From Thermococcus thermotolerans (GTDB taxonomy: Archaea > Methanobacteriota_B > Thermococci > Thermococcales > Thermococcaceae), in assembly GCF_024707485.1 (NCBI RefSeq), contig NZ_CP102602.1, forward strand, positions 1,984,001 through 2,048,000: DNA of 64,000 nucleotides. The letters run 5' to 3'. Under the pieces are notes generated by a model. That model saw only the letters and a program-made list of their open reading frames with translations. It made no database searches and had not been told where the DNA came from. Below are positions 41,703-49,016 of this stretch, one piece after another (position 1 is the first letter of the stretch; the number at the start of each line of letters is the position of its first letter). Position numbers and translations under genes: made by a program.

Positions 41703-42851
41703 TCAGAGCCATCTCGGCTTCAGACCAGCCCAGGCCCTCATCTTCTCGTGGGCGATGATGCGCGGTATGTTGCCCATCTCCTTCGGACCCGGGTTCTTCA
41801 TGTAGAAGGCGTTGACCTCGTAGACCGTTCCGAAGGCCTTCTTCTCAATGGCTATCTTTCCAAGTCTCACAAGGTCGACGAGGAGTCCCGCCAAGGCAGG
41901 GCTGTCGTTTATCCTGCCGGTGATGACGAGCTCATCCCTGGCACCGTTGAAGCTGACGTACTCGATGTGCATCGCTATGAACTTCTTGTCGCCGAGGGGT
42001 TCGAGGAAGCCCGTGGGCTTGATGTAGTGCGGTGCATCGTAGCCGAGGAGCTCCTTGACGACGGAGCTCTTGGTGAACTCCTTGCTCTTGTTCCTCTCCT
42101 TGTCGGTTAGGGCAAGGAAGTCGTTGTTTCCGCCGATGTTGAACTGGGCTATGTCGAGCACATACCTGTTCCTCTGGGCGAGGTGGCTGAGCACATCGGC
42201 GGTGAGCGGAGTTGCACCGGTGGCACCGTCGTCACCGAAGACCACCATGTTGCTCTCCTTGGCGAGCTCGACGAAGGCCGGGTCGTTGGCTATCAGCGTT
42301 GGAATCGCGTTGACGAAGGCAGCGCCTCCGACCTCCCTGGCGTACTGGGCTATGGCATAGGCGTAGACCTGGGTCGCCGTGAGCCTCTCCCTGTTGTCCT
42401 CGGCGATGGCCTTCTCAAGCTCCTCCCTGCTTCCAAAGGGGACAAAAGCTTCAGTGGTGCAGACGTTGATGAAGACCTCAGCCTTGAGTTCTTTCCACTC
42501 GTTAACGAGGTGTTCGACCGCTTCTCTGAGCGTCATGTCGTCCTCAAGGCCGGTGGCCTCGATAGGAAGGTTCCTTAGGCTCCTCAGGTGAATTCCTTTC
42601 CTTATGGTGAGTCCCTTGAGGCTCTCCGGTGCCTCTGGGTCGTAGCTCTTGACGACCTCATAGAGGTCCTTTCCAACCTTGCTTTTATCAACGTCGTAGG
42701 AACCGACTATCTGGATGTCCCTGATTTTAATCGGAAGCTCATCGGCGAGGGGAACGCCGTACGGCTCCATCTTTCCGGCCTTTATTTTTTCCAGACCGCT
42801 CGCGAAGATGCTTGCAACGTATCCCTGTCCGAGTATGACAACCCTGACCAT
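41703..42851 (-). CDS. Inositol-1-phosphate (myo-inositol-3-phosphate) synthase
   Basis: Converts glucose 6-phosphate to L-myo-inositol 1-phosphate with internal NAD+ use, 382 residues. The NAD loop is VILGQGYVASIF; NIGGNNDFLAL, FGDDGATGATPLTADVL and the C-terminal dimer region are family-specific. The product feeds di-myo-inositol phosphate (DIP), the heat-stress solute, and inositol lipids. ATG 42851 follows GGAGGTGGATGAA. It is divergent from the ABC transporter operon whose far end meets the IPCT/DIPPS gene. Confidence 0.95.
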   Translation of the reverse strand: MVRVVILGQGYVASIFASGLEKIKAGKMEPYGVPLADELPIKIRDIQIVGSYDVDKSKVGKDLYEVVKSYDPEAPESLKGLTIRKGIHLRSLRNLPIEATGLEDDMTLREAVEHLVNEWKELKAEVFINVCTTEAFVPFGSREELEKAIAEDNRERLTATQVYAYAIAQYAREVGGAAFVNAIPTLIANDPAFVELAKESNMVVFGDDGATGATPLTADVLSHLAQRNRYVLDIAQFNIGGNNDFLALTDKERNKSKEFTKSSVVKELLGYDAPHYIKPTGFLEPLGDKKFIAMHIEYVSFNGARDELVITGRINDSPALAGLLVDLVRLGKIAIEKKAFGTVYEVNAFYMKNPGPKEMGNIPRIIAHEKMRAWAGLKPRWL

Positions 42852-42988
42852 TTCATCCACCTCCTTTGTTGTCCTAAGATATTTTACAGTAGTTAAATAG
42901 TTTTTGGTGGGAAAACGGTTTCATGGATCTTTGAACATCTCATTATCCCTCCGTTTCTCGATTGCAGGCCATAGAGCCCCCTCCAAAA

Positions 42989-43090
42989 ATTTTATAAATA
43001 ACAAAACTTGAATAAAAGGTGAAATCAGCTCGCTTTCTAAAATAAGCCCTCCGGGCCTTTTTGGGCTCGCTTTTGAAAACTTCGGAGGGT
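42989..43090 (+). promoter_or_regulatory. Promoter and structured 5' leader of the sugar-type ABC operon
   Basis: TTTTATAAATAAC (42990-43002) is the TATA box; transcription should start near 43019, giving a leader of about 79 nt. In it CCCTCCG (43047-43053) is complementary to CGGAGGG (43083-43089), which contains the ribosome site. AGCCC (43045-43049) is also complementary to GGGCT (43063-43067). The two pairings exclude each other, as in a translational switch. GCTCGCTTT is directly repeated at 43028-43036 and 43065-43073. Confidence 0.55.
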
Positions 43091-43097
43091 GGTAGCC

Positions 43098-44732
43098 ATG
43101 AGGGCCGCGGCACTATGGCTGATTGCACTGGTAATTTTCGGAGTAATTGCCAGCGGCTGCATCGGTGGCGAGGAAGCGAAGACTTCTCAGGCTGATGTTC
43201 AGCTTACTGGAGACATTACAAAGGATCTTGTGGAGATAGGAAAGGTTCTGGAGCAGAACGGGGTTAATGAGGTCAAGTTTTCGGCCTGGGGTTCCGGCGA
43301 CCCGAACAGTGTCATGAGGGTTTACGGAATAGTTGAAGCCGCGAGGAGAATAAACAAAATCTGGGCCGACAACGGGATCAACGTCAAGATCGTCATAACC
43401 GAGACCCACTACGTTGCCTCCTTCCAGGATGCCTACAAGGAGTACCTCAGCAAGCAGCCCCTCGGGCAGGCCGGAGACTTCTTCGTGAACAGCTATGCTT
43501 TCCTACCGACACTGGCTGACGAGGGCTACATACTCGACATAACTGACTATGCCAAGGCCTATCAGAGCGTTATCGACGACTTCTACCCGTCCATGATTGA
43601 GGCCTCAAAGTACGACGGAAAGCTCTACGGCCTGCCTCAGGACACCGAGGCGAGGCCGCTCTACATAAGGAAGGACGTGGCCCAGAAGATAGGGTTCGAC
43701 CTCAACGGCCTCGATGAGAAGGTTAAGAAGGGCGAGTTCACCTGGAGCGACGTCTACTACTGGGCCAAGAAGGCCAAGGACGAAGGCGCCGCCGAGTGGG
43801 GCCTCATCCACAGGAAGGGTTCGGCTCATCCAGACCTGATACAGTTCATCTTCGCCTTCGGCGGAAAGCTCTACGATCCGAACACCGGAAAGCTCGTCGT
43901 CGACGTTCCGGCGGTTTACAAGTGGCTCTACGTTGAGTGGAAGTTCGCCCGCGGTGGCCTGCTCCCGGAGGACATAATGAGCTGGGACTGGGCCAAGCAG
44001 ATACACCCGGCCATAGTCGAGGGCAGGGCGCTCTTCGACATAGGCGGAACCTGGTATTGGACGGAGTGGCAGACCAAGCAGTACTACGCCAAGGGCGGAA
44101 CACCGAGGGGCCTGAAGCCTGAAGAGGTGAGGGACTGGTTCTACTATACCCTCTTCCCCGCTGGAGAGAAGGGGGACAAGCCGGTAACCCTCAGCCAGCC
44201 CTTCGTCTGGATGATAAACTCCAAGGCGGGCCAGCTGAACCCGAAGTACGACGAGCTCAAAGACGTTTACCACAAGCTCGCCTTCCTGATGCTCATCAAG
44301 GCCAGCGACCCGGACATAAACGCCATACACAGCGTCATCTCCGCCCACCTGCCGGTGAGAAAGGAAGCTGCAAAGCTCATCAAGGACGAGAAGTGGCTCA
44401 ACGACCTCAAGGCCCTCAACCTCGACCTGAGCGACGATGTGAAGAACAACATCAGGGACATAGTCCAGGCGACCGTCAACCCGATAAACGCCCAGTTCCT
44501 GGCGAACGTCAGCTACATGCTCGAATACACCCACCTCGCTCCGGCACACCCGAAGTATCCGGCTTTGGCCGACATCTTCAAGGAGGCTGTCGACAAGGTT
44601 CTGAGGGGCGAGATGACCCCGGAGGAGGCCGTCAACTACATCATCCAGAAGGTCAACGCCGACCCGGAGCTCAAGGAAAACGTCGAGATACAGGGTGAGA
44701 TACCCAAGGACTGGAAGTTCCCGCAGGGATGA
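43098..44732 (+). CDS. Sugar-type ABC transporter substrate-binding lipoprotein
   Basis: Extracellular solute-binding protein, 544 residues, longer than typical MalE (about 400-450). A signal peptide with lipobox ending ASGC (Cys about 21) anchors it to the membrane. Typical family 1 motifs occur: KYDGKLYGLPQDTEARPLYIRKD and later an FDIGGTWYW aromatic patch, which would stack against a sugar or polyol. ATG 43098 follows GGAGGGTGGTAGCC. It heads a four-gene operon (binding protein, two permeases, ATPase) lying between the two genes of DIP synthesis. Confidence 0.93.
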   Translation: MRAAALWLIALVIFGVIASGCIGGEEAKTSQADVQLTGDITKDLVEIGKVLEQNGVNEVKFSAWGSGDPNSVMRVYGIVEAARRINKIWADNGINVKIVITETHYVASFQDAYKEYLSKQPLGQAGDFFVNSYAFLPTLADEGYILDITDYAKAYQSVIDDFYPSMIEASKYDGKLYGLPQDTEARPLYIRKDVAQKIGFDLNGLDEKVKKGEFTWSDVYYWAKKAKDEGAAEWGLIHRKGSAHPDLIQFIFAFGGKLYDPNTGKLVVDVPAVYKWLYVEWKFARGGLLPEDIMSWDWAKQIHPAIVEGRALFDIGGTWYWTEWQTKQYYAKGGTPRGLKPEEVRDWFYYTLFPAGEKGDKPVTLSQPFVWMINSKAGQLNPKYDELKDVYHKLAFLMLIKASDPDINAIHSVISAHLPVRKEAAKLIKDEKWLNDLKALNLDLSDDVKNNIRDIVQATVNPINAQFLANVSYMLEYTHLAPAHPKYPALADIFKEAVDKVLRGEMTPEEAVNYIIQKVNADPELKENVEIQGEIPKDWKFPQG

Positions 44733-44741
44733 GGTGATGCC

Positions 44742-45680
44742 ATGACAAAGGGAAAGCTCAGGGACCTTTCCTTCTTTCTTTCCCCAATGGTGCTGATGGT
44801 GTTCCTGTTCTATCTGGTGCCCCTAGTCATGACCATCTACATAAGCATGACCCGGATGAGGAACTGGAACGTTGACAGGTACCTTACCGAGTTCGTCGGC
44901 CTCTACAACTATGAGAGGCTCTTCTACATGTTCCAGCACGACCCGACGTTTAAGGCCGTGATCCTGACGACCGTTGTATTCGTTGGGATAACGCTCATGA
45001 TAAACGTCTTCGGCGGCCTTGCGCTGGCCCTTGCGACCTTCTTCATCAACGAGAGGCCGGCATCTTCATACAGGCTTCTGTGGCTCCTCCCCAGGATGTC
45101 GCCGATAGCGGTTTACAGCCTCGTCTGGTACTACTTCTTCCACGGGAGTGAAATAGGAACCCTGAACTCGATCCTCATGAGTCTCGGCCTCATCTCGGAG
45201 CCCATCCCCTGGGGCCAGGTAACACCCTGGGGGGCGTGGAGTGTGATAATCTTCGTCAACGGCCTGGTGGGTGTAAGTTTCGGAATGATAGTCTTCACCT
45301 CGGCCTTGAATCAGATACCAAAGGAACTCGTCATAGCCGCGAGGGTCGATGGCGCCTCCTCCTGGCAGATATCGAGGCGGATTCTGATTCCGATGATCAA
45401 ATGGCACCTCCTCTACGTCCTGACGTGGCAGTTCCTCAGTCTTCTCACGACCTATCCGCACCTCTTCCTGCTCGTCCAGTGGGATCTCGTCAACAGGGAC
45501 TACGGAACGACCTTGGCACTCTACGTCTTCAACACAGCCTTCGGCAGAGGAGAACAGGACCAGGGATTGGCCGCTGCAGCGGCTGTCATACTCTCCATAA
45601 TCGGAATCCTCGGCGGCTTCGTGACGCTCAAGGTCCTCAAGTTTGAGAGGATGATGAAAAAGCCCAGGGGGGACTTCTGA
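44742..45680 (+). CDS. ABC transporter permease, MalF-like
   Basis: A 312-residue permease with six helices. The EAA loop is visible as ELVIAARVDGASSWQISRRILIPMIK, the contact for the ATPase. ATG 44742 follows GAGGTGATGCC nine bases after the binding-protein stop. Substrate is unknown (sugar or polyol class). Confidence 0.94.
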   Translation: MTKGKLRDLSFFLSPMVLMVFLFYLVPLVMTIYISMTRMRNWNVDRYLTEFVGLYNYERLFYMFQHDPTFKAVILTTVVFVGITLMINVFGGLALALATFFINERPASSYRLLWLLPRMSPIAVYSLVWYYFFHGSEIGTLNSILMSLGLISEPIPWGQVTPWGAWSVIIFVNGLVGVSFGMIVFTSALNQIPKELVIAARVDGASSWQISRRILIPMIKWHLLYVLTWQFLSLLTTYPHLFLLVQWDLVNRDYGTTLALYVFNTAFGRGEQDQGLAAAAAVILSIIGILGGFVTLKVLKFERMMKKPRGDF

Positions 45681-46549
45681 TGAGGGACGTGGAGACGAGA
45701 CCCAAGAGGTACGAGCGGCTCATAATCCTCGCCCTCCTCCTTGCGAGCCTCCCGCTCATCCTGGGCTTTTCCCTCCTTGTCCTTTCGAGCTTCAGCACGG
45801 AGATGGTCACCAATCTCGACCCCAACTCCTTCCGCCCGACGCTTGAGAACTGGATAAACCTCTTCCAGGGGAAGATAGCCACCACCGGTGGAATAAGGGT
45901 CAACATATGGCGCATAACCCTCAACACGCTCATAGTGGCCCTCGGTGTGGCCGGCGTCGTTACTGGGATAAGCGCCCTAGCCGGCTACTCCCTCTCAAGG
46001 ATAGACTTCCGCGGAAGGAAGACCATGATGGTTCTCCTCCTCGTCCTCCACGCCTTCCCGGGCGTTGCCCTCATAGTGGGCGTTTACCTCCTCTACCGCC
46101 TCACGTTCCCCCAGAACTACGAGGTCGTCGGGCTCTACTCCTTCGCGTACGTCATACTCGCGAGGGCGGCGCTGGAGATACCCATGTCTATCTGGCTAAT
46201 GAAGGGCTTCTTTGACACCATCCCCTGGGAGTTCGAGTGGTCCGGAATCATAGACGGCGCCTCCCGGATAACAGTCTGGAGGAAGATAATGCTACCCCTC
46301 ATAAAGCCCGGAATCCTGGCTGTTGCCCTCTTCGCCTTCCTCGCCGGCTGGCAGGACATAATCTACGTGAGAACCTTCCTCGTCTATCCAACCCTCGCGA
46401 CCTTCATAGAGGCCAACATAGAGGCAGAATACTCCCACATGCCCCTCATAGCGGCCGCCGGAACGTTCTACCTCCTTCCCACGGTAATATTCTTCATCAC
46501 CGCCCAGCAGCTCCTCCTCCAGGGCTACTCGGGTGGAATAAAGGGCTGA
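45680..46549 (+). CDS. ABC transporter permease, MalG-like
   Basis: A 289-residue six-helix permease. Its EAA loop is EFEWSGIIDGASRITVWRKIMLPLIKPG. The ATG overlaps the previous stop (TGATG), indicating coupled translation. Confidence 0.94.
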   Translation: MRDVETRPKRYERLIILALLLASLPLILGFSLLVLSSFSTEMVTNLDPNSFRPTLENWINLFQGKIATTGGIRVNIWRITLNTLIVALGVAGVVTGISALAGYSLSRIDFRGRKTMMVLLLVLHAFPGVALIVGVYLLYRLTFPQNYEVVGLYSFAYVILARAALEIPMSIWLMKGFFDTIPWEFEWSGIIDGASRITVWRKIMLPLIKPGILAVALFAFLAGWQDIIYVRTFLVYPTLATFIEANIEAEYSHMPLIAAAGTFYLLPTVIFFITAQQLLLQGYSGGIKG

Positions 46550-46559
46550 GGTGGTTGAA

Positions 46560-47645
46560 ATGGTTAAGGTCACCCTTAAGGATATCACGAAGAGGTTCGG
46601 CGACTTTGAGGCCCTCAAGCGGGTGAGCCTTGAGATAGCCGATAAGGAGTTCATGGCGCTCCTCGGACCGAGTGGAAGTGGCAAGTCAACGCTCCTATAC
46701 ACGATAGCCGGAATTTACCGGCCGACGAGCGGGAGAATATACTTCGACGGCAGGGACGTTACAGATGTCCCTCCGAAGGACAGGAACGTCGGTCTGGTCT
46801 TTCAGAACTGGGCTCTTTATCCCCACATGAGGGTCTTCGACAACATAGCCTTTCCGCTTGAGCTGAGGAAGGCACCGAAGGAAGAGATAGCCAAAAAGGT
46901 CAGGGAAGTTGCCGAGATGCTCCGCATAGAGAACCTTCTCGACCGCTATCCCTGGCAGCTCTCGGGTGGCCAGCAGCAGAGGGTTGCCATAGCAAGGGCC
47001 CTGGTCAAAGAGCCGGACGTCCTCCTGCTCGATGAGCCGCTGAGCAACCTCGATGCCCTCCTAAGGCTTGAGGTAAGGGCCGAGCTCAAGAGACTCCAGA
47101 AGGAGCTCGGAATCACCGCCGTTTACGTCACCCACGACCAGGCCGAGGCCTTGGCAATGGCCGACAGGATAGCCGTGATAAGGGAAGGGGTGATACTCCA
47201 GGTCGGAAGCCCGGACGACGTCTATTACAGGCCGAAGTACCGCTTCGTCGGCGGCTTCCTCGGAAGCCCGCCCATGAACTTTGTCGAGGCCGAGGTTAGG
47301 GGGTATTACCTAGACGTTTACGGAAGCAGGATTCCGGTTCCGGGTCAGTACCGGGAGCTGGTTGAAAGACTCGGTGTTACTGAGGTCATCCTCGGCTTCA
47401 GGCCGCACGACGCCGAGGTCGTGAAGGAAAAAACTGAAGGACTCGCCGGAACGGTCTATTCCTTCGAGCCCCTCGGCAGGGAGCAGATAGTCACCGTTTC
47501 GGTAAATGGGGCCTTTGTCAAGGTCTTTGCCCCGGAGGGGGAGCACTTCAGCTTCGGCGAACCTGTGACTGTGAAACTCCGGGAGGACAGGATAGTTCTC
47601 TTCGACAGGAAGACGGAGAAGGCCCTTGAGTTCCTTGAGGGCTGA
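46560..47645 (+). CDS. ABC transporter ATPase, MsmX/MalK-like
   Basis: A 361-residue ATPase: Walker [11 protein letters not shown]-loop, signature LSGGQQQRV, Walker [14 protein letters not shown]-loop VTHDQ, then a C-terminal regulatory TOBE/OB region (about 240-361) ending in [14 protein letters not shown]. This is the sugar-import class (CUT1). ATG 46560 has GGTGG six bases upstream; the GTG at 46551 overlaps it. It converges on IPCT/DIPPS with a two-base gap. Confidence 0.95.
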
Positions 47646-47647
47646 AC

Positions 47648-48931
47648 TCAGCTTTTCTTTCTCCCTATCAGCCACGCCGTCATAACCACCCGCAGGTTCG
47701 TGATTATGGCGAGCAGGAGGAAGAGCGCCTTAACTGAGACCTCTATGGGGTAGAGAAGAAACAACATCGTCAGAAAGATTCTCTCGTCCCTTTTTCCGGG
47801 GAGCTTTCTGAGGGCCGGAATAGAGCCGTAGGCGTCCTCACCGTAGGCCGCCTTGAACCTCTCGGTTGAGTAGCTCACCATCACCGAGCCGAGGAGAGCG
47901 AGGAGGGCAACCAGATGCCAGAGGGGCTCTCTGAGGGTCGAGTAGGCTAGGAGGGCCAGAAACGCGCCGTCAACGTAGCGGTCAAGGAGGGAGTCGATGT
48001 AGCCCCCGAACCTGCTCGTCCTGAGCTGGGCCCTCGCTAATTCGCCGTCAACGCCGTCGAGGATTGAGCTCAGCTGATAGAGTATTCCGGCCAAGGGGAG
48101 GCTGACGAGCGTCAGAAAGGCCGAGAGCATCCCGAGGGCAAAGGTGATTGCCGTCATCCCGTTCGGGGAGACCCTTTCGGCGAGGAGGTAGCTGATCTCC
48201 GTTGAAATCCTCCTGTTGAGGTGCCTGCTGACAAAGCCATCGCCTGTTCCCTTCACCGCCGTCTTCACGAGCATCCTCCTCGCTTTCTTCAGGTCGTTGG
48301 GAGTGTCAACGTCTGTCCAGGGGAGGCCGTCGATGAAGGTAACGGCCAGTTTGGCCCTTTTCACGACCTCACTTAATGGGTAATCCCCTTCCCTTTCTAT
48401 CTCCAGCTTCTCGGTTACCTCAAAGATGCCCTCGTCGAGGACGAAGAAGCCAGTATCGACTGCGTCCCATTCCTCAAGATTCTTTCCTATCTCCTTAACC
48501 CTGCCATCTCTGACCCTTACCTTAGTCGCCTCACCCACGTCCGTCCATCTCGGTCTCCTGTCGGCTATAAGGCCGCTCCCCTTCAGGGCCTCCCGGATGA
48601 ACTCCTCGCCGTAAACGTGGTCGCCCATCACCAAAACAAACCTTTCCGAGATGTGGCCTTTCGCCAGGTGGAGGGAGTGTCCGTTGCCCTTTTCCGGCTC
48701 GGGGTTGACTACCAGCTCCGCGTTGAAGCCGTGCCCCTCGATGAACTCACGGTAAAGCCCAGCGTAGCGTTCGTTGGTGACTATCACGAACCTCTCAACA
48801 CCGTTTTGCCCGAGAAGGGTGAGCGTCCGGTACAGGATTTCCCTCCGGGCGACTTTCAGGAGCCCCTTCGGTCTCTCCCCCATCCTCGTCCCGAGGCCTG
48901 CCGCTAGAATCACCGCCGTCTTTGGCACCAT
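47648..48931 (-). CDS. Bifunctional IPCT/DIPP synthase
   Basis: Two enzymes of DIP synthesis in one 427-residue chain. The N-terminal half (about 1-225) is a CTP:inositol-1-phosphate cytidylyltransferase with AAGLGTRMGERPKGLLKV. The C-terminal half is a membrane CDP-alcohol phosphotransferase with the motif DGx2ARx8Gx3Dx3D (starting DGELARAQ) and several helices; it joins CDP-inositol to inositol phosphate. ATG 48931 follows GGTGATGCCA. A TATA box (TGTATAATCC, minus strand near 48977) predicts a leader holding that site. With the synthase at 41703 it completes the path except for the last phosphatase. Confidence 0.95.
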   Translation of the reverse strand: MVPKTAVILAAGLGTRMGERPKGLLKVARREILYRTLTLLGQNGVERFVIVTNERYAGLYREFIEGHGFNAELVVNPEPEKGNGHSLHLAKGHISERFVLVMGDHVYGEEFIREALKGSGLIADRRPRWTDVGEATKVRVRDGRVKEIGKNLEEWDAVDTGFFVLDEGIFEVTEKLEIEREGDYPLSEVVKRAKLAVTFIDGLPWTDVDTPNDLKKARRMLVKTAVKGTGDGFVSRHLNRRISTEISYLLAERVSPNGMTAITFALGMLSAFLTLVSLPLAGILYQLSSILDGVDGELARAQLRTSRFGGYIDSLLDRYVDGAFLALLAYSTLREPLWHLVALLALLGSVMVSYSTERFKAAYGEDAYGSIPALRKLPGKRDERIFLTMLFLLYPIEVSVKALFLLLAIITNLRVVMTAWLIGRKKS

Positions 48932-49016
48932 TGGCATCACCTTTTTAAAGCCCCCGCCGAGCCACTCTCCAGTGGGGGATTATACATCGACGATTTGAAG
49001 CTTTCGGGTGAGTGAG

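Follow-up and report, generated by a model that had tools for sequence, protein, structure and literature searches.

A conserved leader upstream of a DIP-linked ABC transporter in Thermococcus: a hairpin and a Shine–Dalgarno-covering helix suggest control of translation

RESULTS

Genes at the DIP locus

The window, by which we mean the whole 64,000-nt stretch of Thermococcus thermotolerans DNA that was analysed, is a di-myo-inositol-phosphate (DIP) locus, containing myo-inositol-1-phosphate synthase (MIPS), an ABC transporter operon and IPCT/DIPPS. DIP is a heat-stress solute. The MIPS gene of the DIP pathway (41703–42860, − strand; Pfam Inos-1-P_synth, E = 1.2e-24) diverges from the operon, which spans 43098–47645 of the + strand. 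The first gene of the operon encodes the solute-binding protein (43098–44732, starting with the ATG at 43098; SBP_bac_1, E = 7.6e-16), and is followed by those of two permeases and a MalK-type ATPase (44742–47645; BPD_transp_1 twice, and ABC_tran with OB_MalK). Convergent with these lies a further gene of the DIP pathway (47648–48940, − strand), the product of which is a fused NTP-transferase/CDP-alcohol transferase (NTP_transf_3 and CDP-OH_P_transf), the layout of IPCT/DIPPS. The Pfam matches and the synteny bear out the sequence-only reading, which had placed an ABC transporter at an osmolyte locus here.

In what follows g1, g12, g13, g14 and g15 are anonymous genus labels, and L-numbers denote the loci of relatives. 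Relatives in g1 and g14 retain the ATG at 43098, which is the conserved start; an in-frame GTG lies upstream of it at 43089. MIPS adjoins the operon at those g1, g14 and g13 loci that have a long enough contig. In g12, which we take to be Pyrococcus, the operon is present without MIPS nearby. The transporter is common to bacteria and distant archaea with 58–78% protein identity (L046 and L047 of Pseudothermotoga, L045 and L050–L060 of the Desulfurococcales and others, L056 and L044), which suggests transfer; some of these distant loci may be misbinned contigs.

Promoter and predicted length of the leader

The core promoter (42984–43020, + strand) comprises a BRE-like CCAAAAAT and a strong TATA box, TTTATAAA, at 42991–42998. 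The TATA box is nearly invariant across two genera, with 98% identity between genus groups in the 10-nt bin at 42988. Transcription in T. kodakarensis starts a median 23 bp beyond the TATA box (PMC4247193), and on this spacing we predict a start at ~43021; a pyrimidine/purine step at 43020/43021 is retained in nearly all relatives. The 5′-UTR would therefore be ~77 nt in length, and is predicted to be longer than is typical: T. kodakarensis has a median of 16 nt (PMC4247193), and T. onnurineus one of 12 nt (PMC5316973). According to the sequence-only reading a start downstream of 43053 would count against it; the predicted start, set by a conserved promoter, lies upstream of that point and of the entire strand complementary to the Shine–Dalgarno (SD) sequence that is described below.

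Conservation and distribution of the leader

Downstream of the predicted start, conservation of the leader exceeds that of the surrounding spacer. Beyond a variable stretch, the segment 43032–43097 is strongly conserved up to the ATG. Its best blocks are 72–77% identical between genus groups, compared with 13–27% for parts of the spacer and 47% for third codon positions. The 5′ flank of the central hairpin, GCUUUCUAAAAUAA (43032–43045, + strand; consensus YUUCUWAAAUAA), has 10-nt bins with 61–77% identity between genus groups against 13–27% in much of the upstream spacer, and T4, T5, T7 and A10–A14 (AATAA) are invariant in a padded alignment, A2. In the 3′ flank, UUUUGAAAA (43071–43079, + strand; UUUURAA), T44–T47 and A49 are invariant in the same alignment.

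Where else is the leader found? All 20 Thermococcus genomes with upstream DNA, falling into the two GTDB genera g1 and g14, carry one copy, located only before the solute-binding gene. A covariance model, R1, recovers this single convincing copy in each of the 20, but since it was trained on those same genomes the informative part is the absence of matches elsewhere: under strict filters, no other match below E = 0.26 was found in 94 genomes. Within the window there is no additional copy, and hence none at MIPS or DIPPS. Extended to g13 and L043, R1 gave weak matches (5.6 and 8.6 bits), and a mechanical scan was therefore used instead, for AATAA followed by a stem of 5 bp and then by either TTTTRA or TTGAA. 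This identified 26 leaders, comprising all 20 of g1 and g14, four of g13, L056 and L095, against a background of two matches in 9218 windows; because the right-hand motif had been widened to fit g13, only L056 and L095 are independent. The layout is kept in two distant leaders and in a third lineage with shorter flanks (g13), with the stems rewritten. In all, the comparative support comes from some five clades that are independent of one another.

The leader occurs where MIPS adjoins the operon; Pyrococcus has neither this gene arrangement nor the leader, and L095 is an exception. At the Pyrococcus loci in question, L087–L094, the operon genes are kept, and several of them share a promoter-like block, AACCGAAA...CTTTTTA, upstream in its place.

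An Rfam scan of 42700–43400 gave no relevant family match, and no account of this leader turned up in the literature that we searched. It is a single-gene leader of no known riboswitch class.

The conserved hairpin

The core of the leader, flanked by the conserved UUUCUWAAAUAA and UUUURAA, is a hairpin that we term P2, and which the sequence-only reading had overlooked. On the + strand the 5′ arm CGGGCC (43052–43057) is complementary to the 3′ arm GGCUCG (43064–43069), across a U-rich loop (43058–43063) that is 4–6 nt long in relatives. In alignment A2, which was padded by hand with N inserted at length differences and so leans on the reading of the analyst, 91.1% of cells are paired, and this falls to 11–54% in every slid register. 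There are compensatory and wobble changes, the outer pair being CG in 8, GU in 6 and AU in 3. The five different pairs of arms found across all the leaders (stem variants GGGCC, GAGCC, ATGCC, TGGGA and TTTGG) are fully complementary at 25 of 25 pairs; the stems were part of the scan, so what is informative is their occurrence at that place rather than the pairing. The flanks and loop of P2 differ in length among relatives, as expected for an element acting as RNA. The sequence CGGGC at 43052–43056 could also pair with GCTCG at 43028–43032, an alternative that is kept in several close relatives (GCCCG/CGGGC, GTTCG/CGAGC) and broken in L101 and L103.

A helix covering the Shine–Dalgarno sequence

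Immediately 5′ to P2, and overlapping it by two nucleotides, the anti-SD strand CCCUCCG (43047–43053, + strand) can pair with CGGAGGG (43083–43089, + strand), and so cover the SD sequence GGAGGG (43084–43089) that this contains. We call this helix P3. It had been proposed in the sequence-only reading, and it is kept across relatives, albeit weakly in some. In alignment A1, which was built from sequence alone, 88.7% of cells are paired, compared with 49–68% in slid registers and 80% in shuffles; there are 12 double-changed cells, and the covariation is 0.491 against 0.317 in shuffles. When SD segments were swapped among one representative per clade, the pairing level of the leaders themselves was reached in 129 of 7140 trials. 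At L113 both sides have been rewired, CCCTCCG/CGGAGGG becoming ACTCTTAAAG/CTTTAGGGGT, which form 10 pairs. Taken together, the sequence comparison supports sequestration of the SD by a strand of the leader, with compensatory changes preserving the pairing in two genera.

The masking is not universal, since the P3 of the second genus, g14, and of L104 and L075 is a weak one. Taken alone, a 7-nt anti-SD is mildly unusual: a perfect SD complement of at least 7 nt is present in 4 of 197 background genes, giving ~2% by chance for one gene. These background genes were picked by simple ORF and SD rules from the window and the loci of relatives. Against them the predicted unpaired probability of the SD, 0.07 at 37°C and 0.23 at 80°C, lies at the 15th and 9th percentile respectively. 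The single-sequence fold of 43019–43110 at 37°C is unremarkable (z = −0.32). In g14 the SD sequences at 80°C are predicted to be about as open as those of the average gene. Five g13 loci (L082–L086) have no P3, and their SD access at 80°C is nonetheless predicted to be low (3rd–12th percentile), by means of a different local hairpin; at most other g13 loci the SD is predicted to be unmasked at that temperature. In L082, L083, L084 and L085 the hairpin lying over the SD of this gene is of the CTTCCGAAATTTTCGGGAGG type.

Lack of support for a two-state switch

The sequence-only reading envisaged a switch, in which AGCCC (43045–43049) would pair with GGGCT (43063–43067) and thereby release the SD from CCCTCCG (43047–43053). 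All of these strings are in place, CGGAGGG (43083–43089) included. Conservation of both pairings had been set beforehand as the test, and the two fared differently. The anti-SD helix is conserved, while the releasing pairing is present in 67.4% of cells against 66.5% in shuffles. Its ensemble probability is 0.00–0.01 from 37 to 95°C, and we reject it. The SD is predicted to open gradually with temperature, and the releasing pairing is essentially never populated. Moreover P2 nests within P3, competition between them being limited to 43052–43053. A two-state switch is thus unsupported, because the releasing pairing fails on conservation and the hairpin that is conserved can coexist with the SD helix. 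A 9-nt repeat noted in the same reading, GCTCGCTTT, is present twice (43028–43036 and 43065–43073); the first copy varies among relatives (GCCCGCTTT, GTTCGCTTT, GCGCGCTTT), so that the repeat is probably incidental and we have discarded it as a functional element.

DISCUSSION

The promoter motif, the conservation of the leader, P2 and, in most Thermococcus, P3 are all evident at the level of sequence comparison. A conserved hairpin together with a pairing that covers the SD in most species suggests that translation is controlled at the level of the RNA. We consider it slightly more probable than not that this is a cis-acting structured leader, damping translation of the mRNA of a DIP-linked ABC transporter by SD sequestration, with P2 nested in P3. 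Transcription would begin near 43021, and the leader would form the short conserved hairpin between its A/U-rich flanks. Pairing of the SD with the pyrimidine tract that adjoins P2 on its 5′ side would then enclose the hairpin and keep the ribosome site closed or half closed. In this way P3 would lower translation. Presumably something opens it, either heat or a protein or RNA that recognises the hairpin and its flanks, and its opening would lead to greater translation of the solute-binding protein.

The structure might alternatively be constitutive, the hairpin and flanks serving to protect the 5′ end of the mRNA or to fix a rate of translation, with the anti-SD pairing arising incidentally from a pyrimidine-rich linker that lies opposite a purine-rich SD. 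P2 and the flanks are indeed retained where P3 is weak, and the SD accessibility of the gene in the window is merely at the 9th–15th percentile; but P3 outscores slid registers that preserve the pyrimidine/purine bias, and L113 has rewired it on both sides. We think this explanation possible but unlikely.

Temperature is a plausible signal. In an RNA thermometer P3, with P2, would melt over the growth range, so that more transporter would be made at higher temperature, in parallel with DIP. Heat strongly raises MIPS expression in P. furiosus (log2FC 4.0; PMC10746257), which makes a heat link for the transporter plausible, and in the core Thermococcus leaders the predicted opening of the SD increases from ~0.0–0.2 at 37°C to ~0.4–0.6 at 100°C. 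Yet that opening is gradual and calculated with energy parameters extrapolated above 37°C, background genes open as well, and the g14 leaders mask the SD little. A thermometer in this sense seems improbable.

Still less probable is translational attenuation by a leader peptide, where a ribosome at the stop codon would sit over the anti-SD and so leave the SD accessible. A uORF-like frame runs from GTG at 43019 to TAA at 43045 (VKSARFLK; MAFARFLK, MALIYFLK and MTLICFLK in relatives). Its stop adjoins the anti-SD, the position of its start codon and its length are constant in most relatives, and its Leu codon varies synonymously (CTA, CTT, TTA, and CTC in L108). However, the start codon spans the predicted transcription start at 43021, L101–L105 and L108 have a broken frame or one without ATG/GTG, and minimum changes by codon position of 7, 4 and 9 are not clearly those of a coding sequence.

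A metabolite riboswitch responding to inositol or DIP, or to a solute related to them, perhaps through an H-type pseudoknot of UUUCUWAAA and UUUURAAA with the SD helix, would accord with the conserved and unpaired-looking flanks around the hairpin, the masking of the SD and the solute-linked genes. But we see no sign of a riboswitch class, with no Rfam match, copies before this one gene only in a search of 94 genomes, and no second copy at MIPS or DIPPS in the window; a multi-gene class we reject on the single locus per genome. The outer helix UUUC/GAAA gains no double changes in a hand count of A2 and is broken by C–A or U–U contacts in g14. We give this explanation very little credence. That the conserved block is instead a DNA element, the palindrome being a repressor operator or TTCTWAAATAA a second TATA box, is scarcely credible: there is an inverted repeat near the promoter and an AT-rich block, but the loop ranges between 4 and 6 nt, the linkers are variable as well, the palindrome is broken by G·T in 8 of 18, and no BRE-like sequence precedes the second block.

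To return to SD sequestration by a structured leader, a broader proposal is that of a new archaeal cis-regulatory RNA family, AAUAA–hairpin–UUUURA plus SD helix, tuning the translation of an osmolyte-pathway transporter in hyperthermophiles, its hairpin and flanks recognised by a factor or its SD pseudoknot responding to heat or a DIP-pathway solute. We offer this tentatively, and would not ourselves expect it to hold in full.

Control by 5′ leaders in archaea has, to our knowledge, often been predicted and rarely demonstrated. According to the T. kodakarensis transcriptome study of 2014, attenuators and riboswitches in Archaea lacked direct support in vivo (PMC4247193). The candidate crcB (fluoride) and sRk28 (preQ1-like) riboswitches are likewise structured RNAs that had been observed or predicted in Thermococcales 5′-UTRs (PMC3124441, PMC4247193), differing from the present leader, which has no Rfam match, in gene and sequence; neither of those two papers mentions inositol. 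Archaeal L7Ae k-turn leaders are also mRNA structures that control translation (PMC6298567), while control here is proposed; by eye P2 has no k-turn signature of tandem G·A pairs beside a 3-nt bulge. In two-state riboswitches the aptamer is usually, though not obligatorily, common to several genes of a pathway, whereas this leader stands at one gene only.

What we describe is a short leader in which a hairpin and an SD-masking helix are both supported by comparison among relatives, situated at a heat-adaptation locus in an order with genetic tools, and offering exact bases to mutate. It raises the question of whether base pairing in RNA is still able to govern translation at 85°C. The leader may best be compared with the SD-sequestering leaders of bacterial RNA thermometers and translational expression platforms, in which the SD is likewise bound by a strand of the leader, across a structure that is short and conserved. 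In contrast to those, it is found in a hyperthermophilic archaeon, the melting of its helix is predicted and gradual, and the conserved hairpin is nested within the SD helix itself.
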